Made by a program: the position numbers and the translations under genes
Source: Sulfurospirillum cavolei
Lineage (GTDB): Bacteria > Campylobacterota > Campylobacteria > Campylobacterales > Sulfurospirillaceae
Reading direction: 5' to 3'
Assembly (NCBI RefSeq): GCF_001548055.1
Contig: NZ_AP014724.1
Span: 2,232,001 to 2,296,000, forward strand
DNA length: 64,000 nucleotides
Shown: in pieces, positions 15,609 to 59,188 of the stretch
How positions within the stretch are numbered: the first letter of the stretch is position 1
Layout of the letters: each line of letters begins with the position of its first letter
The notes under the pieces: model-generated
The model's database searches: none
What the model saw: the letters and a program-made list of their open reading frames with translations, nothing else
What the model was told of the DNA's origin: nothing

Positions 15609-15800
15609 TTCATCTCCTTTTTAAGAATATGGAAGCATTATAAAGATATCTATCTTAAATAGTAATTAATCTTATTTAGAATTTATTCCTATAATTAATT
15701 ATTCTTAAATAGGATAGTTAATATCTTATTAAGCTCTCCTGCTATAAAATTACGACATTTACGGTATTTTTAACATTATTATAAAGGATCAGTGCGTTTT
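15609..15800. promoter_or_regulatory. Divergent peroxidase/PerR control region with repeated CTTAWWTAG words
   Basis: 192 very AT-rich bases. Related 9-mers occur at 15654 (CTTAAATAG), 15671 (CTTATTTAG), 15704 (CTTAAATAG) and 15725 (CTTATTAAG). A palindrome-like TATAATTAATTATT lies at about 15691-15704. Together these look like overlapping operators for a Fur/PerR-type repressor serving both divergent genes. The function is inferred from position and symmetry. Confidence 0.5.
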
Positions 15801-16205
15801 ATGGAAAGATTTAAAGATGTGCTCAAAGCAAGCAACCTCAAATCGACGCATCAACGTTTAGCAATACTCGATTCCATCGATCAGTTCGGACATATCGACA
15901 TCGATACGCTTTTTGACGTTATTATCCGTAAATATCCGACGATGTCGAAAGCTACTCTCTATCGTAACATTAATGATCTGATTAATTTTCATATTTTAGA
16001 AGAAGTGAAACTCCCGCATCAAAAACAACAATACGAAATCAAAAAAGTACCGCATATTCATCTTTTATGTTCCAAATGCGGTAGCGTCGAAGATATTTTT
16101 ATCGATACGAAACCTCTTTTAGAAGCAATTTCCCACCAAAGCGGCTTTATCATCAATAGTAGCTTTATGGTAATGAACGGTATTTGCCAACACTGCCGCT
16201 CTTAA
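15801..16205 (+). CDS. Fur-family transcriptional regulator, PerR-like
   Basis: About 134 residues. N-terminal winged helix (KSTHQRLAILDSIDQFGHIDID, shown here in parts: STHQRLAILD) with recognition-helix SKATLYRNIN, then the metal-binding HIHLLCSKCG and C-terminal CQHC. The two CxxC pairs fit the structural zinc site of Fur/PerR proteins. An in-frame GTG at 15792 is only three bases from AAGGA, so ATG 15801 is preferred. The divergent peroxidase and the TTATAAAAATTATAA box after this gene support a peroxide- or iron-sensing role. Confidence 0.85.
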   Translation: MERFKDVLKASNLKSTHQRLAILDSIDQFGHIDIDTLFDVIIRKYPTMSKATLYRNINDLINFHILEEVKLPHQKQQYEIKKVPHIHLLCSKCGSVEDIFIDTKPLLEAISHQSGFIINSSFMVMNGICQHCRS

Positions 16206-16349: not shown

Positions 16350-18263
16350 TTGATCAAAAGTGTTCTATGTTTAGTTTTATCCGTCTCATTTGTATTCAGC
16401 GAAACCATAGATTATTTATTAAGCGAATATGAGCGCGCCTCCGATAATTCATTGCAAACCGTCGATGAAAAAATAGGGCATGTCATTAACTACTCCCAAC
16501 AAGAGATTCGGTTGATGCAATACCGAACCCTCAACGACATTCTTCGAGAATTACCCGTTTTTAACGTAAATTCCAACCGTTTTGGTCTTTCTACCCCTTC
16601 TTTGGTCGGCACGAAAACGACGACAAGCGGCTTCTTTCGCTTTTTTATTAACGATCATGAACTGAGCTCCGGATACGACCAATCGACTTTGCTCTCATGG
16701 GGCGATCTTCCTCTGGATTTTATCGATCACGTCGAAATCTATTACGGAGAAAGTTCTTTTTCCTTCGGTAATGAAACGGGAATGTATTATATTCGTATCT
16801 ATACGAAAGAGCCTGAAAAAGAAAATGCCTCGGCAATTAATCTAGGAATCAACTCCCAAAAAGCGTATTCGCAAAGTTTTACGCAGTCGCAAACCTTTGA
16901 AAACGGTTGGAAATACCTTATGTTTGTCAATCAATCCCGAATGTTTAAAGAGTCGGATTATAAAAACCAGACCCTTAATGCTAACGGAATACGAAGGTAT
17001 CTCTTTGCCGATGCCAGTAACGAAACCTCTCGCATCAGCGCGGCGTATACCGATTTTTCAAGCAACAATTACGCGGGACTTTCCATCGATGCTATCCCCG
17101 ATAGCGGACGTATGCGCTCCAAGGATTTTTTCGTTGACGTAACGCACTTTTTTTTAGACGACCGCTCCATCAAGGCAAACCTCTCCTTTGATGCGAATAA
17201 CCGAGAGTATTACGAAGAGAACGCCCAAGGATTATGGCTCGTTCCCGTCCTCGATTTTACGCAATTGGGATTAACGATTCCCATCGCGTTCGATGAAGAA
17301 TTAGAAGTTTTCAAAACCAACGCATTTCTTTCAAAAACCTTCACAAGTGAAGAAAACACGTTTCTCACGGCATTCAACGTTCAACATAAAAGTTACGACG
17401 TTAACACTAGAAAAACAATCAATATGCTGCATCAAACAACCGATGTAGGAGCATACAACGACTTCGATACCGAGACGATCGGCTCTTTGATCGTACAAGA
17501 CAGTTACCGCTTAAACGACGAGATCATTCTCGTCGCCAACGCAAAATCGGATCGACACCGACGTGACGGATTTATGGAAGACTCGACCGATTCGCTTTAT
17601 CGTATCGGGGCAATTTATACGCCGACAGATTATCTCGGTCTCAAAAGCTTTTACACGAAAACTGCTATTGCACCCACATTTTATACGATCGATTATGCTG
17701 CCTTTTTCGACAAAGAACTCCAATCGCAAGCTTACCGTTTTTATACCTTGGAAGCGGCATTAACGTTTGGTGACTCTAAAGTAAACGTTACGTACGATCA
17801 TGTCGCTATCAACGATTTTATCTACTACGAACCTACGGTCGGATTTTTAAACGTCGATCATACGATTCATACCGAAGGACTTATCTTTGATTACGAATAC
17901 GCCTTATCGCGTAACGACAAACTGCACCTCAACTATTACACGTCTACACTTAGCGAAACGATCAATAATTCAACTAAGGGCGGCTATATCAAATATATGG
18001 GCAGTTACCAAAAGTGGGACTACTTTACCTCTTTGATTTATAAAAATGCCTAGCGTTACGAGACTATCCATGTCCCGGCAAGCTACAACGTAAGCCTCGG
18101 TGCAACCTACCATTTAACGAAAGATCTGAGCTATAGCGTCAAAATCAATAATATTCTCGACAAATCGACGCGTTCTCTCTACCAAGAAAACGTCAACGGC
18201 TCTTTCACGCTCGAAGACGATAGCGATAGAAACATCTTTTTTTCGCTGCAATGGATTTTTTGA
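16350..18263 (+). pseudogene. TonB-dependent outer-membrane receptor with in-frame TAG
   Basis: Signal peptide MIKSVLCLVLSVSFVFS, a plug domain (NDILRELPVFNVNSN, DHVEIYYGESSFSFGNE) and a beta-barrel. The frame stops at TAG 18051-18053 after 567 residues. It then continues without another stop or shift for 69 codons to TGA 18261-18263. The continuation reads as a normal receptor end: SYNVSLGATYHL, SVKINNILDKS and a terminal FSLQWIF ending in phenylalanine, the usual barrel-assembly signal. So a single substitution appears to have removed the last barrel strands. TTG 16350 is the likely start. The next gene overlaps the final TGA. Possibilities are a recent nonsense mutation, read-through, or a sequencing error. 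Confidence 0.85.
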
Positions 18264-18721
18264 TGAAGCATGTCATAATCATTAGCTTACTTGCGATTTT
18301 CACGTATGCGGATAATTATACGTTTTTGGTTAAGCCTTATCAAAAAGAGATAGAGTTGGAAGCAAAAATTATTGCCGAAATTGCCGCTTCCTCTTTGAAC
18401 GAACCCCTTAGACTCTTTATTCCGGAAATGTCAAAACTTGAAAAAAGTGTCTACGCGCAGTATGCAACGCTTAGTGCAACATGTGAAGATGCAAACTTTA
18501 TTTTTATCAATAAAAACATCGATGCAAATAGTATCTGCCACGCTAAAAACACGCTTTACTTTACCAACAATTATCGGAAGCTTCTTTCCGACGAACGTTA
18601 TTTCGGTGCTTTTTTTTGGAATAAAAGCCGACCGAATATCGTTTTTATCCAACGACGACTCCAAGCACACCGCATCCATTTACCGAGCTCTTTTGAACAG
18701 TTTATCGAGTCGATCGAATGA
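18263..18721 (+). CDS. Small periplasmic protein, YfiR-like
   Basis: 152 residues with signal peptide MKHVIIISLLAIFTYA. The mature part carries two cysteines (CEDANFIF and SICHAKNT) and ends GAFFWNKSRPNIVFIQRRL before PSSFEQFI. That ending and the size resemble YfiR/DUF4154-type periplasmic regulators of membrane diguanylate cyclases; I propose this from pattern and context only. ATG 18263 overlaps the original stop of the receptor gene (TGATG), and the end overlaps the GGDEF-EAL gene, so the three form one translationally coupled cassette. Confidence 0.6.
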   Translation: MKHVIIISLLAIFTYADNYTFLVKPYQKEIELEAKIIAEIAASSLNEPLRLFIPEMSKLEKSVYAQYATLSATCEDANFIFINKNIDANSICHAKNTLYFTNNYRKLLSDERYFGAFFWNKSRPNIVFIQRRLQAHRIHLPSSFEQFIESIE

Positions 18722-20634
18722 CACTGCGCTCGTTATGGCATAAAAGTCCGTTTTATTTTTTTATCCCGACGCTTTTGATTGCTTTTGTTCTGCTTTTACT
18801 TCTTAGCTATACGATTAAACTTGAAGAGCAAATCGGTCGCAAACTCTTTACGATTTCCACTTCCGATCTTTTCAGCATCACCCAAAATTGTGCTTCACAA
18901 GTCGAAAATTTGCTTCATTCCCAACAAGATTACGTCGAAGCGTTGAAAAACGACGTCACGTTACAACGCCGCGTCGAATCGTATCTCAAAACACTCTTAA
19001 CGCCCAATATCAAATACGCATATTTGGTTTACAAAGACGACCGCGGCATCTTTCGCTTTTTAAGCGATGCATCCAACAAAGAAGACAAAGCGATGATCAA
19101 TCAAAAACTAGATATCGAAAGTCCCGAATGGTTTCGTATCTATGAAGAAAAACGTCCCGTTATTATTCATCATACGCTCTTGCATCAACTATCGCTTACC
19201 TACCTCCTGCCCATTCAATACGACCATCAGGTGCAACTCGTCTTGGCTATTGATTTTTCGGTTCAAAAAATCGAAGAAGTGAACTATGTTTTGACGATTT
19301 TAAAACGTGGAATTATCGGCATAATGGTGATTATCGGCGTTATTTTATTCTTTTTGATCCTGCAGGCGATTCGTTTGAAAGATATACGCAAAAATAGCTT
19401 TATCGATAAACTGACCGGCGTTTATAACCGTAACTACCTGCAACATTACCAAGATTTGATTCCGCTCGACGATTATATTATTGCGGCGTTAGACATCGAC
19501 TATTTTAAAAAAATCAACGATACCTACGGACACGATAGCGGCGATCAGGTGCTAACGCAAATCGCTCAAACGCTTTTAACTTCAACGCGAGAAAAAGAAG
19601 ATATCGTCATTCGATACGGAGGAGAAGAGTTTTTAATCTTAGCGCGTATGCAAAAAAATGATCCGAGCACACCGCTTAATATCATTGAAAAACTCTTCAG
19701 CACGATTCAAAATACCCGTTTTGTATTGCCCTCCAATGAATCGATTCAGCTTAGCGTTTCGATCGGCGTTAATCTCGTTCCTCAAAAATCACGTACGTTT
19801 CAAGAAGCTTTTAAACTTGCCGACGTCGCACTTTACAATGCCAAATCGAAAGGGCGCAATACCATTGAGATTTACGACGAATCCGGACACAAAGATCAAC
19901 GCGGTCATTTATCCTTAGCCGAAATTAAAGCGGCAATCGAAGAAGATCGCCTTACATGTTACTATCAAAAAATTATCGATGTCGAAACCGCTCAGATTTC
20001 ACATTACGAAGCTCTTTTGCGCCTTTTCGACCATGAAAACTGCATCGTAACGCCCGATAAAATCCTTCCGAGCATTCAAGGTACGTTTTTATTGCGGAAC
20101 ATTACGCAAAAAGTTCTCGGTGTCTGCTATCAACAACTTCGTCTTCATCCCAAGCTTTGCATCAACGTGAATCTCAATCCTCAAGATATTATCGACGAGA
20201 CAATCTTATCGCTTCTAAAAACCTACGCACAAGACCCTTTGATCGCAAAACGCTTAGGTTTAGAGCTGGTTGAGACGGAAGATTTGGTACGTAAAGAAAA
20301 AGCAAAAGAGAATTTGTCGATGCTGAAGCGCTTAGGGTATCAAATCTTTATCGACGATTTTGGGAGCGGATATTCCAACTTTATTTACCTTGCCGAATTA
20401 AAACCCGATTTTATTAAAATTGACGGGAGTATTATTCAAAAAATTCTAACCGATACGATTTCATTTTTATTGGTCAAAAATATCGTGACGTTTGCCAAAG
20501 AAGCCGGTATCCAAGTCATCGCCGAATACGTAAGCGATGAAGGCATCTGTGAACAAATTCGCGATTTAGGCATTCGCTACGCCCAAGGCTTCTTTTTCTC
20601 TCGCCCCGAACCGGCTTCCTCACTTTGCGATTAA
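18718..20634 (+). CDS. Membrane GGDEF-EAL protein (c-di-GMP synthesis and breakdown)
   Basis: 638 residues: helix at about 12-32, a periplasmic sensor domain (about 35-195), helix at about 197-216, GGDEF domain and EAL domain. The cyclase site is GGEEF at 301-305, intact, so synthesis is possible. The phosphodiesterase motifs are EALLR at 431-435 and DDFGSG at 546-551, also present, so the protein could work either way. The upstream receptor and YfiR-like genes suggest that the periplasmic domain receives an envelope signal. The stop overlaps that of the convergent nuclease gene by four bases. Confidence 0.93.
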   Translation: MTLRSLWHKSPFYFFIPTLLIAFVLLLLLSYTIKLEEQIGRKLFTISTSDLFSITQNCASQVENLLHSQQDYVEALKNDVTLQRRVESYLKTLLTPNIKYAYLVYKDDRGIFRFLSDASNKEDKAMINQKLDIESPEWFRIYEEKRPVIIHHTLLHQLSLTYLLPIQYDHQVQLVLAIDFSVQKIEEVNYVLTILKRGIIGIMVIIGVILFFLILQAIRLKDIRKNSFIDKLTGVYNRNYLQHYQDLIPLDDYIIAALDIDYFKKINDTYGHDSGDQVLTQIAQTLLTSTREKEDIVIRYGGEEFLILARMQKNDPSTPLNIIEKLFSTIQNTRFVLPSNESIQLSVSIGVNLVPQKSRTFQEAFKLADVALYNAKSKGRNTIEIYDESGHKDQRGHLSLAEIKAAIEEDRLTCYYQKIIDVETAQISHYEALLRLFDHENCIVTPDKILPSIQGTFLLRNITQKVLGVCYQQLRLHPKLCINVNLNPQDIIDETILSLLKTYAQDPLIAKRLGLELVETEDLVRKEKAKENLSMLKRLGYQIFIDDFGSGYSNFIYLAELKPDFIKIDGSIIQKILTDTISFLLVKNIVTFAKEAGIQVIAEYVSDEGICEQIRDLGIRYAQGFFFSRPEPASSLCD

Positions 20635-50742: not shown

Positions 50743-53592
50743 TTACATGTCAAACGCAACGACGCGGTTTCGCCCTTGCGCTTTGGCTTCGTAGAGTGCT
50801 TTATCGGCTTTGTCGAAGACTTTGACGATACTATCGTATTTTTCAAATTGCGCTACCCCGAAACTCGCCGTAATTGAAACCACTTCGGGAAACCTGTACG
50901 CGGCAATGCTTTCGCGCAATTTTTCCGCCAAAGTTTTAGCCCCGTTTTTGTCCGTGTTGCGGCAAATGAGCAAGAACTCTTCGCCGCCCCAACGTCCGAA
51001 CACGTCGCTTTCGCGTTTCGCACGCATCACGATTGCGGCGATGCTTTTGAGTACCTCATCGCCTCGTTTATGCCCGTAATTGTCGTTCACGTTTTTAAAA
51101 TAATCCAAGTCGAATAAAACAATTGAAAGCGGCGATTGATAGCGATCGAACAACTTTTTTTCCTGCTCTAAAATATCATCCAGCTTCAAACGATTATGAA
51201 TACCCGTAAGCTTGTCGGTGTTGGAGAGGATTTCCAGTTTTACGTTGTATTGATGGAGTTGATACTGCCTGATCAAGACGATAAAAACAATAAAACCGAT
51301 GAACGCCGAAATAATATAAACATACGTATAGTCCATATGCCCCTCGACGTTGACCGAAATCCATTTGTTTAAAACGGTTTGTTTTTGAGTCGCATCGATC
51401 AAATCGATCGCTTTTTCAAATAACGAGAGCAAAAGCGGTTCATCGTTTCGCGTCGCGATGCTCAGGTCTATTCTTTCATCCAGTTTGCTAATGATTTTTA
51501 ACGAACCGAAATAGTCTTTTTGAATCTGATACGCCATCGTCGGTAACGTCCCGATAAACCCGAAAAGCTTCTTTTGCGCGACTTGTTTAAGTCCCTCTTC
51601 GTCGCTTGGGGTATCGATAAATTGAAGATTCGGATAATGAACCCTCAAAATATCGCCGTACGCATACCCTTTGGTTATCCCGATGGATTTGCCCGCAAGC
51701 GCGTTGATGTCTGCGTAAAACACTTTGTCTTCCCCCGAAACCAACACAAGCGGTATTTGCATGTACGGATGGGTAAAATTGAGATACGCCTTGCGTTCGG
51801 GCGTCGCGATGGAAAGCGATAAAATGTCGCACTGACGCTCTTTGGCTTTGAGAAGCGATTCCGCCCACGTGCGCGTCGGTATCAAATCGATCGGAACGCC
51901 TAAAAACGTCTCCATAAGAGCGATATAATCGGCAATGATGCCCACGTGCTTCCCGTTTTGGTTCATCTCCAAAGGCATTTGATCGGGATTGATACACATA
52001 CGAATACGGTTTTTTTGCGCAAGGTATATCTGCTCGTCTAAGGAAAGAGCCAATCTCGACTCTTTGGACATAATGCTTTTCGACCACTTGGATTTCAGCG
52101 CGTCTAGTTCATCGGGCGTGACGCTGTGCAAGGCTTTGTTAATAATCCCTTGCAAGACTTCGTCTTCCGGTTGCATCACGATGTAAAGGTTGCTATCTTC
52201 CAAATTTTTGAGCGCGACTTTAAAAGCAACATGTAAGTTGGTGAGCATCTCTTTTTCGATGACATAATGCGCCGTAAACGCATCGTCGACTCCGGCATCG
52301 ATCAATCCGTATGCGATCGCTTCGAGCATCTCTTTGGCGGTTTCATACTCCACAACGTTGAGCTCGGGATACTCCTCTTTAAGGTATTGCGTTGTCGGCC
52401 ACCCTTTGCCCGCACCGACGGTTTTACCTTTGAGCGTTTCCATCGTGCTGATGTCGTGACGCTTGGTTTGGGTGATGAGGGCTAAGTCCATCGTGATAAA
52501 TTTATCGCTGAAACGAAAATGGTGACGTCGCTCCGCGGAGGGAATGAGCGGTTGCGCCATCTGAATCTCTTTGTTTTGAAACTTTTCAAACACGACAGGC
52601 CATGTACCGCTGATAAAATTGAAATGTATGCCTACTTTTTTGCCTAAAAGTTTCAAATAATCCACCGAAAAACCTTTTGCCTCGCCCTCTTCGTTAAAAT
52701 CGTACGGATACCAGCCAAGCTCGTTGGTCACGCTAATGATGGGATGTGTCGCGATATACATTTTTTCATGTTCATTTAGCTCGATACTTTGCGTGGCGGC
52801 AAGCGAATTTTTTTCCTGAACCAGTGGAAGGTATTTGCGTTTGATCTTGACATGTACGTCTTGCGGCATGACCTCCAACATCTTATTAAAAAGCGAGATA
52901 AACTCAGGCCAATCCTTCGCCACAGCAACAGACTGCTCTTCGGTAGCGTAGCGCGTGAGATTGGAAATCTTGACGTTATCGAGACGATAGTTTTTAACAA
53001 ACATGCTCATAATCGCAATATCGCCGATAAAACCGTCGACTTTATGCTCGTTGACCGCCCTCATCGCTTCAAGAGAATTGGCATAAGTGACGTAGGTAAA
53101 ATGCGGAAAATCGTGTTTAAGCTTCTCGTTAATCACGTAATGAGGAACCACGGCAATTTTACGCATACTTCCGTTAAAGAAGATTTCGGAAGGAAAGGTT
53201 TTGGACGTTAAAAGCGAGAAAGGAAAAGCACAGTAGGATTTGCTAAAGAGCATCGTTTGGTGAAGTTGAGAATTAGGCGTCAACCGTAAAATGACGTCAA
53301 TACCCTCGTGCGTTTTCACACGCTCCAACGCTTCCGCCCAACTGCCGCGGGCGTCGTATTCGATTTTGAGATTGAACATGGAAGCAAAAAATTTGATGTA
53401 CTCAACGCTGATGCCGACGTACTCGCCCTCTTGCATAAATTGGTACGGCGGAAGGTCTTTGGTGATGCGAACGTGAAGGGTTTTGGTTTTATCCAACCAT
53501 GCTTGCTCTTGTGGGCTTATCTCAACCGTTGCGGCATGCAACCATCCAAGAAAGTACGCCGTTATAAAAAAAAGGGAGACGATCACTTTCAT
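50743..53592 (-). CDS. Three tandem SBP_bac_3 domains fused to GGDEF
   Basis: 949 residues from ATG 53592. After a signal peptide (MKVIVSLFFITAYFLGWLHA) come three amino-acid-binding-protein-like domains (about 25-275, 276-520, 521-760). Each begins with the same kind of leader, ISPQEQAWLDK, LNEHEKMYIAT or LSLDEQIYLAQ. A single helix (about 765-785, YVYIISAFIGFIVFIVLI) leads to GGDEF, with GGEEF at about 869-873 intact. The design resembles BvgS-like sensors with a cyclase output, and triple sensing is uncommon. The stop overlaps an ACATGTAA word (GAC ATG TAA). Confidence 0.92.
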   Translation of the reverse strand: MKVIVSLFFITAYFLGWLHAATVEISPQEQAWLDKTKTLHVRITKDLPPYQFMQEGEYVGISVEYIKFFASMFNLKIEYDARGSWAEALERVKTHEGIDVILRLTPNSQLHQTMLFSKSYCAFPFSLLTSKTFPSEIFFNGSMRKIAVVPHYVINEKLKHDFPHFTYVTYANSLEAMRAVNEHKVDGFIGDIAIMSMFVKNYRLDNVKISNLTRYATEEQSVAVAKDWPEFISLFNKMLEVMPQDVHVKIKRKYLPLVQEKNSLAATQSIELNEHEKMYIATHPIISVTNELGWYPYDFNEEGEAKGFSVDYLKLLGKKVGIHFNFISGTWPVVFEKFQNKEIQMAQPLIPSAERRHHFRFSDKFITMDLALITQTKRHDISTMETLKGKTVGAGKGWPTTQYLKEEYPELNVVEYETAKEMLEAIAYGLIDAGVDDAFTAHYVIEKEMLTNLHVAFKVALKNLEDSNLYIVMQPEDEVLQGIINKALHSVTPDELDALKSKWSKSIMSKESRLALSLDEQIYLAQKNRIRMCINPDQMPLEMNQNGKHVGIIADYIALMETFLGVPIDLIPTRTWAESLLKAKERQCDILSLSIATPERKAYLNFTHPYMQIPLVLVSGEDKVFYADINALAGKSIGITKGYAYGDILRVHYPNLQFIDTPSDEEGLKQVAQKKLFGFIGTLPTMAYQIQKDYFGSLKIISKLDERIDLSIATRNDEPLLLSLFEKAIDLIDATQKQTVLNKWISVNVEGHMDYTYVYIISAFIGFIVFIVLIRQYQLHQYNVKLEILSNTDKLTGIHNRLKLDDILEQEKKLFDRYQSPLSIVLFDLDYFKNVNDNYGHKRGDEVLKSIAAIVMRAKRESDVFGRWGGEEFLLICRNTDKNGAKTLAEKLRESIAAYRFPEVVSITASFGVAQFEKYDSIVKVFDKADKALYEAKAQGRNRVVAFDM

Positions 53593-53684
53593 GGCATGCC
53601 CTCTCAAGACAAGAGTGTTTCGGGACTTCGGGACTTAGTATACTAAAAATTTTCTACAAATGCGTTATGCCGAAACGTTTAGCC

Positions 53685-53699: not shown

Positions 53700-54326
53700 T
53701 TAATGCTCATCAAGCAACAGTTTCAGCCCTAAAAAGAGGAAGAGAGCTCCGACGGTTTTATGAAACCATCGAATTGCGAAATGATCTGACGTTAGTTTTT
53801 GCAGTGCAAGCGTTGCACTCCATGCGATCAAAATATTCCATAACGTTCCGTTCACGTTAAAGACGACACCTAAAAAGAGCATGCTTAAGGAGTGGTATTG
53901 CGCTTGTTGATCCACAAACTGAGGTAAAAATGCTAAGAAAAAAAGTGCGACTTTGGGGTTGAGCGCATTGGTTAAACACCCTTGCCAAAAAATCGTTTGA
54001 AACGAGACAAATCGCGCACGTTGCGACGAAACGAGAGAGGCACTTTGAAAGATCATCTTAAAGCCTAAATACAAAAGGTACAACGCACCGATGACCTTCA
54101 CGACCGTAAACGCCGTTGCGGAAGCAACGAGAAGGGCCGATAATCCGACGCTTGCCGCCACGATATGAACCATACATCCCGTCGAAATTCCCAAAGCCGC
54201 CGCCAAACCGCCTTTAAAGCCTCGTGACGAAGCGTGTGAAAGAATATAAAGCGTATCGGCTCCGGGCGTCATATTGAGCAGTAAACCGGAGACGACAAAA
54301 AGCCAAAGATCGTGTGTTCCGAACAT
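53700..54326 (-). CDS. LysE/RhtB family exporter
   Basis: 208 residues with six helices. The N-terminal motif LNMTPGADTLYILSHASSRGFKGG (cited as TPGADTLYILSHASSRGFKG) is the RhtB/LysE signature; CLTNALNPKVALFFLAFLPQ is a second one. It exports amino acids or related compounds; the substrate is unknown. An exact TTACATGTAA lies just after its stop. Confidence 0.93.
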   Translation of the reverse strand: MFGTHDLWLFVVSGLLLNMTPGADTLYILSHASSRGFKGGLAAALGISTGCMVHIVAASVGLSALLVASATAFTVVKVIGALYLLYLGFKMIFQSASLVSSQRARFVSFQTIFWQGCLTNALNPKVALFFLAFLPQFVDQQAQYHSLSMLFLGVVFNVNGTLWNILIAWSATLALQKLTSDHFAIRWFHKTVGALFLFLGLKLLLDEH

Positions 54327-54368
54327 CGTTCTCCTTGCGTTGTTTCAAGGTGCTCTGTTTTAAAGAGT

Positions 54369-54764
54369 TTATCGCTTACTATTATAGTGCGAACTTCCCC
54401 AAAATCCAAGCAATCCCACCGGTAAAAGCAATATCCATTGCGGTAATTTAAACCACCAACCGCTTGATGTTTGCATTGCTATCACGGCTAAAAAGATACC
54501 GCCGAAAGAGCACCACAAAAAAGCAATGCACTTCACGGTTACAAGCAGCTCTTTCGTACAGGCATAAGAACTTCGCATGAAAATCAATGCCGACAACCCT
54601 AGCGTTACCGAAACCATATGCCATAGGGCATACAAAACGAGCTTCGCTTCTTCATCCATAGGCGTCGCGAGCAATACCGAAGCGACATCCGCCCCGCCTG
54701 CAATGACGTGAATCAGCGTCGTTACCAGTGCCAAAAGCCCTGCTAGCAAAAGTTTTATATTCAT
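54369..54764 (-). CDS. Small four-helix membrane protein, unknown function
   Basis: 131 residues with hydrophobic helices near 5-25, 40-62, 72-95 and 105-125. The sequence (MNIKLLLAGLLALVTTLIHV) matches no family I recognise with certainty. It is between lysE-like and araC-like genes on the same strand and may be cotranscribed with them. Confidence 0.7.
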   Translation of the reverse strand: MNIKLLLAGLLALVTTLIHVIAGGADVASVLLATPMDEEAKLVLYALWHMVSVTLGLSALIFMRSSYACTKELLVTVKCIAFLWCSFGGIFLAVIAMQTSSGWWFKLPQWILLLPVGLLGFWGSSHYNSKR

Positions 54765-54782
54765 CGTATCGACCTTAATTTT

Positions 54783-55550
54783 TTACCGTATTGTAGGGTG
54801 AAACGACGCTTTTGTCTTGTAAAAAACCGACATAATCTCATGCGTGGGAAAAAACTGTGAGAATTTTTTGAACTCTTTATTGAAGTGAGATTGGTCACAA
54901 TAGCCAAAGTCATACGCAATCGCGGAAAAATTGGAAATATCGTTTTTGATCACCTCTTTAAACACCGTAAAAAAGCGCAAAATAGTGCAAAATTTTTTCG
55001 GCGTATACCCTATGAAATGTTTGAAAAGTCGTTCAATCTGCCTGCTACTAAGCTTGGCGTAATTTTCTAAATCGCGCATCGTTCGAACACCTTGATGCAA
55101 CGTGATATGATCAACGAGGTCGAGTATCGGTTGATGAAATGCCGTCGCTTTGCATAAAGATTCAAAAAGCGCGTCAAGGAGAATGACTTTTTGAGCCTCA
55201 TCCGATCCGTAACGATCAAGCTGATAGTGCAACGATGGAGACACTTCCGCTAAAGGGACGATACGATCGGTCAAAATATGGGCTTCGATGTGTAACAGTT
55301 GAGGTAAAACGGAAGGACGAAAACGAATTCCAAACGCATCATCGCCCGCTTCAATCGGCATAATCTTACTCTCACTCATCGCTCCGACAAGCATCCATTG
55401 CCGCTTTTGATAGACAAGATCCATGCATCCATCCGGCACGATGGGTATTAAAATGCTTTTGGACGAACTGTTTTGAAGGCTCCAATACGTATCGATGAAA
55501 GTTTGAAGAGCAAAAGAAGGGTGGTATTTTTGAGTCTTCAAAAACTGCAA
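54783..55550 (-). CDS. AraC family transcriptional regulator
   Basis: 255 residues. The N-terminal region (about 1-145, SLQNSSSKSILIPIVPDGC, GIRFRPSVLP) is of the DUF6597-like sensor type. The C-terminal double helix-turn-helix has SSRQIERLFKHFIGYTPKKF and FGYCDQSHFNKEFKKF. TTG 55550 follows AAAGG at eight bases. It probably controls the membrane-protein and exporter genes downstream. Confidence 0.9.
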   Translation of the reverse strand: MQFLKTQKYHPSFALQTFIDTYWSLQNSSSKSILIPIVPDGCMDLVYQKRQWMLVGAMSESKIMPIEAGDDAFGIRFRPSVLPQLLHIEAHILTDRIVPLAEVSPSLHYQLDRYGSDEAQKVILLDALFESLCKATAFHQPILDLVDHITLHQGVRTMRDLENYAKLSSRQIERLFKHFIGYTPKKFCTILRFFTVFKEVIKNDISNFSAIAYDFGYCDQSHFNKEFKKFSQFFPTHEIMSVFYKTKASFHPTIR

Positions 55551-55568
55551 ATCAATGACCTTTTGTGT

Positions 55569-55578
55569 TTACATGTAA
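55569..55578. repeat. TTACATGTAA dispersed word
   Basis: Exact copy at the left border of the accessory island, between araC-like and the first island gene. Confidence 0.7.
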
Positions 55579-55587
55579 CAAGATTCT

Positions 55588-56241
55588 CTACTTGCCCCCA
55601 TAAAAAGAGCCTATTATTTGCCAGATTTCATCTATCTCTTCCTCACTCCACTCTTTACGTTTTGGTATCGGCGTATCTTTTTGTTTTTGCGTAAGCTCTA
55701 TGTAAGAATAACGCTTGGGATTATTTTGTATTTGCTCAAGAACATGGTAATAGTTGTCGTCACGGTACCTATCACTTAAAATGCATTTTTTGTGGACTCT
55801 ATCCCACATAATGCCTTGGTCTGCTTTTTTACCGTCTCTTATCCTTAGCCTCTCATCAACCCAAAGAAAAGCATCGTAAAAACTACCGATAAAGCTATGA
55901 CCTGTTATCATTTTACTTTCATTTCGATTGTCTTTCAAAACTTCAGTAAATCTACCTATCTCTCGTAAAGAACGATGGGTTAATGACATGACAATGATTT
56001 CATAAAATCCTAAACTATAATCATATAAAGAATAAATCTCTCCATGTTTTACAAAATATACACCGCATACCATACTGACGTCATCACAATGTTCGAAAAA
56101 ACTATGCGCATTTAATTTTCGAAAATCATTTGACCATATATAATATCCAGTAGTATCGCATTCGATGTAGAAATCTCTTATCATGTTTTGCTTGCCAAGA
56201 TGCAAGTCTCGTGTTGGAAGTAAATGAGCAGTATTATACAC
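55588..56241 (-). CDS. Unknown protein of accessory island
   Basis: 217 residues from GTG 56241, or 198 from ATG 56184 (MIRDFYIECDTTGYYIW); neither has a clear ribosome site. It is rich in aromatic and charged residues, with EWSEEEIDEIWQIIGSFYGG at the C-terminus. I recognise no family and no catalytic motif. It starts three bases after the frameshifted gene, so the two were probably one unit. The codon usage and AT content differ from the flanking core genes. Confidence 0.7.
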   Translation of the reverse strand: MYNTAHLLPTRDLHLGKQNMIRDFYIECDTTGYYIWSNDFRKLNAHSFFEHCDDVSMVCGVYFVKHGEIYSLYDYSLGFYEIIVMSLTHRSLREIGRFTEVLKDNRNESKMITGHSFIGSFYDAFLWVDERLRIRDGKKADQGIMWDRVHKKCILSDRYRDDNYYHVLEQIQNNPKRYSYIELTQKQKDTPIPKRKEWSEEEIDEIWQIIGSFYGGK

Positions 56242-56244
56242 TAT

Positions 56245-57373
56245 TTAGATCTCTATAAGATTGCTTTTATTTCCAACATAAGCATCAACAAAATTTAAAA
56301 TATCTCGAACCCTTGAAATAGAATGTTCTTGCAATCTAAAACGCATATCAGAACAAGAGACACAATAGTATTTAGCAATATCATACTCTCGTTTCCAAAA
56401 TGAAGGATATGTATCGTTATCATGAATAAAAAATCCTAAACATTCTTTTATCGCTAATAAATCCGCATCTCTTAGGGTATTTCTACGCACATGGCTGTAA
56501 AGCCTTTTAGTATCGCCTATCTCCACAATTTCATCAAAAAGAGTAGCTATTTTATTTGGTAAGTCTATATCACAGACGGTATCGTTAAAGCAGGCATTAA
56601 TATATTGTGTCGATATGGTCAAAATTCTTAATTTTTGTTCTTTAGAGACATTTGTTCCCGCACAAAGACTCTCACCGCTTTTAAAACGACTTAAAATTTT
56701 ATTGGCAATAAATCTAGCAAAACCGTAAAAGACCTCATAATCAAAAATCATGTCCAAGTAATTAAGACGATTGAGACTTTTCATCTTAGTCACTTGTACA
56801 TTCTTACCATTTTGTATCAAGTTTATCATTTCTAAAAGCTTTTTGCTAATATGATATTTATCGGGCTTTTTTTTAGGTTGTTTGATTGTTAAAGTTCGTC
56901 TGAAGTGTTTTTTTGTGTGATATTTCCAAGCCAACGAACCTTCCTTTATCGTTTTGGCACTAAAGTATTTCAAAAAACTTCCAAACGTCATCATTTTTTT
57001 ATCTAACATCTGTAGCTGTTGATGTCGTTTAGCATACTCAGGATACACGCCACGCATCCAAGCATTAAACGAACCTCTCCCAAAAATAAACTTTAAAAAT
57101 GGCTTTTCTCCGATAGTATATACGGCGAGATTCTTTTTTTAATTTTCCTTTTTCCTGCCATAACCGAAATAGACTTCCTGAAATATGAACATAATCTCGG
57201 TCATGCTTATAATAAAAAATGCCCTCTTTTTTTCTATTTTTTTTAGTCCTTTCGGGGTAAAAAAGAGCCTTATTATTTTTAAAAAGCCACTTATCGGGAA
57301 ATAAAATATAAAACCCTCCGGTATAGACGATAACCGTGTAATGTTCTGAGAATGTGACCTGCATATGTAGCAT
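56245..57373 (-). pseudogene. Unknown island gene split by a +1 frameshift in an A7 run
   Basis: Two frames, 57373-57065 (102 codons) and one ending at 56245, join at a run of seven A (minus strand; 57134-57140). Reading straight across with one A removed gives a continuous protein of about 375 residues: FRLWQEKGKLKK then NLAVYTIGEKPFLKFIFGRG and GSFNAWMRGVYPEYAKR. The second frame is open and protein-like upstream of its first ATG (57057), up to the run. The protein has basic regions, cysteines and no recognised domain. The run could be phase-variable, a real inactivation or a base-call error. Confidence 0.8.
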
Positions 57374-57507
57374 TATTTATATTGTATATTATTTACCATT
57401 TCTATATATTACACTAAGTAAAAGCTTTTATATTGAAATGAAAATTTTTCTTTAAAACCAACATTTTAACCTCTTGTTTGATATTCTTTAAAATTTACAT
57501 GGTAATT
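57374..57507. other. AT-rich gap between the unknown genes and the restriction gene
   Basis: 134 bases, extremely AT-rich: only 12 of the 60 bases at 57361-57420 are G or C. TATATT and TATAAA words could be promoters for the unknown genes. No coding potential seen. Confidence 0.4.
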
Positions 57508-58257
57508 TTATAAAAGTTCACTTCGCATTCCTAGTATTCTAACCCAGTTTTGTGTGAAGCCTAAACCTTCCAAAACAACCTTCGGAGAGAGTTGTTCTGG
57601 CTGTTTAATAATAATGGCTAATCTGTCATCTGGAACATGCTCAATGATAGTAAATTGTGCCCCATGCGGTTGCCATGTAAACTTATGCTCTCCATCTTCG
57701 TTAAAACCTTCAATATTATGATTTTTATTCCACTTCCATGTAAATGAGTCTTGATTATAAAGAACCGTGTCGTGTTCAAATAAAGCTAATTCTAATAGAT
57801 CTTCACTTTTGATCAAAACTGTTGTTCTCAAATGATGATATTTACTTCTGATAGCAGCGACACGTTCATTCCATATGGAAAGAACCATAGCACCGATCAT
57901 ATTTGGATTTTGCGAAAAAACGGCATCCTGCCCAAATGAAAACGATGGAGAATTACGTCCTGAGATTAAGCGTACTTTTTTCGCTTTTGATGGAGAAATT
58001 GCTTTTACCGTTTTAGCACTCCAAGCGGTTTGTTCTAAAACGATATCATCCAAACCAACATTGGACGGCTTCCAACGTCCTTGGATTATTCGTGAAAATA
58101 TCTGCTCCCAATCTGAACCTTCAAGAGAAGGTGTCATACGTGTTGCTAAGAGGTATACAATCTCTTTCGCTAAGTCACATGCAACATTGTTCGGAAAATG
58201 ATTCAGTGGGTAGGGCGGTATATATTTTTCGACTGTTTTTAATTTTGGGCGTAACAC
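57508..58257 (-). CDS. Putative type II restriction endonuclease
   Basis: 249 residues, GTG 58257 with GAGGAG seven bases upstream. Directly follows and overlaps (83 bases) the cytosine methyltransferase, the usual place for a cognate nuclease. The segment DDIVLEQTAWSAKTVKA fits a D...xAK form of the PD-(D/E)XK core, and a second conserved-looking segment is KVRLISGRNSPSF. I cannot name the family or recognition site. The nuclease role is inferred mainly from context. Confidence 0.65.
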   Translation of the reverse strand: MLRPKLKTVEKYIPPYPLNHFPNNVACDLAKEIVYLLATRMTPSLEGSDWEQIFSRIIQGRWKPSNVGLDDIVLEQTAWSAKTVKAISPSKAKKVRLISGRNSPSFSFGQDAVFSQNPNMIGAMVLSIWNERVAAIRSKYHHLRTTVLIKSEDLLELALFEHDTVLYNQDSFTWKWNKNHNIEGFNEDGEHKFTWQPHGAQFTIIEHVPDDRLAIIIKQPEQLSPKVVLEGLGFTQNWVRILGMRSELL

Positions 58258-59188
58258 CGTCTAACTCCTCTTGCGAAAGTAATAAAGATTTAATAACAAC
58301 CTCAGCTACATTCACAGGCAAAGAATTTCCTGCTTGTTTACGCAACTGACTCTCACTTACCGTTATTTTAAAGCTTTCAGGAAATCCTTGTAAACGTAGC
58401 ATTTCTCTAGAACTCAAACGACGTTCTCCATTAACAAGAAGATAATTATAAGATGCTCCTGCGCGCAATGCACATGAATACGGATGCGCACTAACACTAC
58501 CGCTCTTATTTTCATGCCAAATCGTCGTTTCTCTAGGTATCGTTTTTATTTTTTCTTTACGATTTGCCTGAATTTTTGATGAGGCATATAACGATTCAGG
58601 AACTTCTTTTTCGAGAATATCATCAAGCGATTTTGACATAATTTTTTTAGTCGGTAGAGAAAAATTATCTAAACCATGAAGAGAGCCGATAATCCAGATG
58701 CGCTCACGTTTTTGAGGTAATCCAAAATCTAATGCATTGAGCAATAAATATTCAACGGCATATCCCATATCTTTTAATACATTTACTATCGTTTTAAGCG
58801 TTTCACCTTGATTATGACCCATCAGTTGCTTGACATTTTCCAAGACAAACATTTTAGGTCGTTTAACAGAAAGAATCCGTGCGATATCAAAAAAAAGCGT
58901 TCCTCTCGTATCTTCAAAACCCTTACGATTTCCAATAATGCTAAAAGATTGGCAGGGAAACCCTCCTAAAAGTACTTCAAAATCTGGAATCGTATATGCA
59001 TCTATTTTTGTAATATCTCCATAGGGTAATTCATGAAAATTTTCGGCATACGACATACGGCATGCAGGATCTATATCTGAGCTAAATACACATTGATGCT
59101 TGATCCCAAGTGAACGACATGCTCCCTCCATACCATAGCGGAACCCGCCTATGCCGCAAAAAAGATCTATAAATCGAATCATCATCAT
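58175..59188 (-). CDS. DNA (cytosine-5)-methyltransferase
   Basis: 337 residues with motif I FIDLFCGIGGFRYGME, motif IV GGFPCQSFS with catalytic cysteine, motif VI ENVK, motif VIII QKRERIWI, and C-terminal motifs IX-X RLSSREMLRLQGFP and RKQAGNSLPV. The target-recognition region (about 180-260) sets the site. It overlaps the putative nuclease. The pair is surrounded by AT-rich, unrecognised genes, pointing to horizontal gain. Confidence 0.95.
   Translation of the reverse strand: MMMIRFIDLFCGIGGFRYGMEGACRSLGIKHQCVFSSDIDPACRMSYAENFHELPYGDITKIDAYTIPDFEVLLGGFPCQSFSIIGNRKGFEDTRGTLFFDIARILSVKRPKMFVLENVKQLMGHNQGETLKTIVNVLKDMGYAVEYLLLNALDFGLPQKRERIWIIGSLHGLDNFSLPTKKIMSKSLDDILEKEVPESLYASSKIQANRKEKIKTIPRETTIWHENKSGSVSAHPYSCALRAGASYNYLLVNGERRLSSREMLRLQGFPESFKITVSESQLRKQAGNSLPVNVAEVVIKSLLLSQEELDGVTPKIKNSRKIYTALPTESFSEQCCM

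Follow-up and report, generated by a model that had tools for sequence, protein, structure and literature searches.

The window, a 64,000-nucleotide stretch of the Sulfurospirillum cavolei genome, carries at positions 16350-18263 of the plus strand a gene for a TonB-dependent receptor (TBDR) with a stop codon inside its reading frame. Translation runs through 567 sense codons to a TAG at 18051-18053, continues for 69 sense codons and reaches a TGA at 18261-18263; of the 637 codons of the gene, the TAG, codon 568, is the only one to interrupt the frame. The preliminary description had reported both an in-frame TAG with the frame open on either side and the loss of the last 69 codons; translation bears out the former, with homologues reading through, and the latter figure is exact. 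The truncated open reading frame (16350-18053, plus strand, 567 aa) begins at a TTG with AAAGG upstream, and the orphaned tail (18054-18263, original TGA included) closes with the residues FFSLQWIF. The gene is single-copy in a single-contig genome of 2.70 Mb.

Homologues were compared from the same genus, from Arcobacteraceae-like bacteria and from other Campylobacterota. The nearest relative, Sulfurospirillum sp. UBA4058 (G014), is 91% identical and syntenic with the window, at ~81-92% nucleotide identity across most of it; its receptor is intact, with Tyr at codon 568. Tyr occupies this position in nearly all homologues and another aromatic residue in a few. Homologues free of lesions of their own all read through it, and among those compared none shows a TAG or a natural end there. 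The tail aligns with those of intact relatives at every residue, and this collinearity indicates that the open frame past the TAG is not due to chance.

The assignment to the TBDR family is supported by a plug domain (Pfam PF07715, E=8e-08, above the gathering cut-off), by profile matches to BtuB and the colicin I receptor, and by the model of the read-through frame, which displays a plug and 22 barrel strands (pLDDT 80.6, pTM 0.82). Foldseek matches this model to solved TBDRs over nearly its whole length at E ~1e-27; matches from a PDB sequence search with the receptor alone were judged to be chance ones. BtuB, YncD/PqqU and FhuE share the plug and 22-strand barrel of the read-through frame, but the receptor is only ~13% identical to them and, unlike them, is truncated here and encoded together with a YfiR-like protein and a GGDEF/EAL enzyme. 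In the strand list of the model, the break near residue 568 falls in strand 19; 19 of the 22 predicted strands remain ahead of the TAG and strands 20-22 lie past it. Also missing from the truncated product is the C-terminal aromatic residue, which is Phe both in relatives and when the frame is read through.

The receptor opens an operon whose order, TBDR, periplasmic protein of YfiR-like fold and GGDEF/EAL c-di-GMP enzyme, is conserved in relatives, several of which have a GGDEF-only form of the enzyme. The small periplasmic protein (18263-18721, plus strand, 152 residues) starts at an ATG that overlaps the original TGA of the receptor by one base (TGATG), and the inner-membrane GGDEF/EAL protein (18718-20634, plus strand), intact and with RYGGEEF and EAL motifs, overlaps the small gene by four bases. 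Neither downstream gene has a clear Shine-Dalgarno sequence, the consensus being matched over at most three bases at both. Given the overlapping genes and the lack of clear ribosome-binding sites, translational coupling is plausible from the gene layout, and the TAG would then probably be polar on downstream translation. Upstream of the operon lies an intact gene for a Fur/PerR-family regulator (15792-16205, plus strand), which adjoins it in several relatives as well. No description of such an operon in Campylobacterota was found in the literature searched.

The arrangement recalls the YfiBNR (TpbB) system of Pseudomonas aeruginosa, composed of the Pal-like lipoprotein YfiB, the periplasmic YfiR and the inner-membrane GGDEF protein YfiN (PMC3375315). 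The operon shares with it an outer-membrane component, a periplasmic protein of YfiR fold and an inner-membrane GGDEF protein, the enzyme here having hydrophobic N-terminal segments. It differs in that a TBDR occupies the place of the OmpA/Pal-like YfiB, in that the enzyme, unlike YfiN, carries an EAL domain too, and in that the small protein, unlike the YfiR sequence family, has no credible Pfam match (19 members searched); it has no PDB sequence match either. Its scattered and weak Pfam hits (Recombinase, Cadherin_2, PI3K_p85B and others) were taken as chance. Its model (pLDDT 84) superimposes on P. aeruginosa YfiR (4xjy) with a VIA-align Z of ~10.3, at 3.4 A over 123 residues, and also matches other periplasmic binding-protein-like folds. 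Since the Foldseek E-value is only ~0.02 and sequence matches are lacking, the link to YfiR is based on fold and gene context.

The substitutions separating the receptor from its UBA4058 orthologue bear on the age of the stop. The dN/dS ratio is 0.058 before the stop and 0.062 after it, the tail showing 9 nonsynonymous and 23 synonymous differences. As judged from these differences, the tail is evolving under purifying selection. A lower ratio than the receptor's was obtained for 30 of 47 further window genes, which places the receptor within the normal range. Had the tail been unconstrained for its whole own branch, 63 nonsynonymous changes would be expected; with 16% of that branch unconstrained, 17 would be expected (P = 0.026 for nine or fewer), and any model with a neutral tail over at least 16% of the branch is rejected (P<0.03). 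Since the tail still looks selected, the stop must be young, or else not real. If real, its age is estimated at less than about 15% of the time since the lineage split from UBA4058; a selected tail also fits a base-call error or read-through.

Lesions of the operon were also surveyed in 44 distinct genomes that carry it (17 of the genus, 23 other relatives and four more), and the receptor is broken in six of them, by different lesions. Besides the TAG at codon 568 in the window, these are (i) a TGA at codon 319 in G011, (ii) a TAA at codon 254 in G005, together with an insertion carrying istA/istB-like reading frames near codon 328 (L053 6258-8178), (iii) a TAA at codon 237 in UBA1877, (iv) a break near codon 457 in UBA6810 (G385), followed by a minus-strand transposase reading frame (L046 6350-7484), and (v) a deletion in G009 (L055 ~5048) that joins receptor codon ~96 to the EAL end of the enzyme gene, the remainder of the operon being lost. 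Both G005 and G011 are ~97-98% identical to G004, where the receptor is intact, and their lesions thus arose separately. The YfiR-like gene has an in-frame stop in G237 (L129) and G387 (L140), with receptor and enzyme intact in both. In the length-matched enzyme gene no lesion was detected besides the G009 deletion, which it has in common with the receptor. An apparent insertion in G012 proved to be a run of N, the stop of an apparent GGDEF gene lesion in G360 precedes the ATG, and in G016 and UBA7394 the alignment simply overruns the natural end of the GGDEF-only form.

Fisher's test gives a two-sided P = 0.055 for receptor versus enzyme with the shared deletion excluded, and P = 0.012 for receptor plus small protein versus enzyme. 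As both tests were made post hoc, on related genomes that include metagenome assemblies and with no genome-wide background of broken genes to set them against, the recurrent lesions must be regarded as a lead only. At this level, the genome comparison is suggestive of recurrent lesions on the receptor side while the enzyme is kept. A second, distantly related module occurs in G001 (L058 611-6368), which has no receptor of the window type; it comprises a TBDR, a YfiR-like protein, a histidine kinase-like protein and an EAL-domain response regulator.

The reading we consider probable is that a three-gene operon for envelope-to-c-di-GMP signalling has recently lost the function of its outer-membrane receptor through a single-base nonsense mutation. 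When the reading frames of the window and of UBA4058 were compared in both directions, the receptor was the only clear gene intact there and with an internal stop here, the other frames flagged being, by their coordinates, upstream extensions, small overlapping frames or edge genes. Among the three origins contemplated in the preliminary description, a fresh nonsense mutation is consequently the best supported, being a single substitution with a still selected tail and the only such lesion in the window. A base-call or consensus error, with the receptor of the strain intact and the TAG absent from the cell, appears unlikely, although it would account for the intact orthologue in UBA4058 and for a tail under the full purifying selection expected of a working gene, and although a single wrong base in this one assembly would look identical to a substitution. 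Against it, the assembly consists of one contig with a completeness rating of 99.99%, the same gene carries other lesions in relatives, and no other window gene has a premature stop relative to its UBA4058 orthologue, so that the local error rate looks low.

The selected tail would equally be expected if read-through or amber suppression yielded a full-length receptor, perhaps as a switch, and this we hold to be very improbable. The suppressor tRNA proposed as a check in the preliminary description did not turn up: no CUA anticodon was found among 45 tRNA genes (RF00005 matches, with ARAGORN run on their loci, apart from four matches within repeated copies of the Ile-Ala tRNA pair). RF1 is intact (prfA, 534 bits, no internal stop), TAG is the ordinary terminal stop of six window genes, and in the window an in-frame TAG was found in the receptor gene only. 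Moreover, the lesions of relatives lie at other positions and consist of TGA and TAA codons, a deletion and IS elements, which speaks against a conserved recoding site and led us to reject codon-specific recoding. It is also improbable, though slightly less so, that the truncated protein is functional, for instance as a 19-strand barrel or with the released plug as a signal; the head still evolves as slowly as before, though this only dates the lesion, and against function stand the loss of the C-terminal strands and Phe that the barrel requires to close and the lack of homologues naturally ending at this point. The broken gene is therefore most probably an accessory outer-membrane receptor hit by a recent nonsense mutation. 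It resembles young bacterial pseudogenes in its single substitution, still selected tail and intact orthologue in the nearest relative, and differs from them in that the receptor was hit independently in several relatives, the downstream c-di-GMP enzyme staying intact.

Under a recent nonsense mutation, translation would end after barrel strand 19 of 22, giving a product devoid of the closing strands and of the C-terminal signal recognised by the BAM machinery, which should then fail to assemble and be degraded. The block in assembly anticipated in the preliminary description, which had overlooked the operon and the independent lesions of relatives, fits the model, where three of the 22 strands go missing along with the terminal Phe. 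Neither the YfiR-like nor the GGDEF/EAL gene downstream is damaged. The early stop probably lowers the translation of both, and by analogy with YfiBNR the YfiR-like protein, freed of its outer-membrane partner, would lock the c-di-GMP enzyme in a single state. A wider and rather speculative proposal, to which we give little weight at present, is that of a Campylobacterota circuit with a TBDR in place of YfiB as outer-membrane sensor, in which the sensing side, TBDR or YfiR-like protein, is lost again and again with the GGDEF/EAL enzyme kept, switching off the sensor being recurrently favoured, e.g., in culture or planktonic life.

Comparison with UBA4058 also brought out other features of the region. 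In the syntenic stretch no counterpart exists for several genes at 53700-54326 and 55588-59188, and 53700-59188 looks like a variable segment, while a 954-codon reading frame at 50743-53607 is continuous here and split into two frames in UBA4058. Just outside the window, a release-factor homologue (G000:C1:2230502-2231524, L090) has an in-frame TGA; it is probably RF2, in which a programmed frameshift is known.

Taken alone, the stop is unremarkable, a case of ordinary gene decay or a mistake in the assembly. More useful is the conserved receptor-periplasmic-enzyme operon, whose receptor gene has been disrupted in several lineages by lesions that differ from one to the next. Were this borne out, naturally occurring mutants would be at hand to test whether c-di-GMP switches can take input from a TBDR, and it would be a warning that such lesions may make sequenced Sulfurospirillum strains unlike one another in their surface behaviour.
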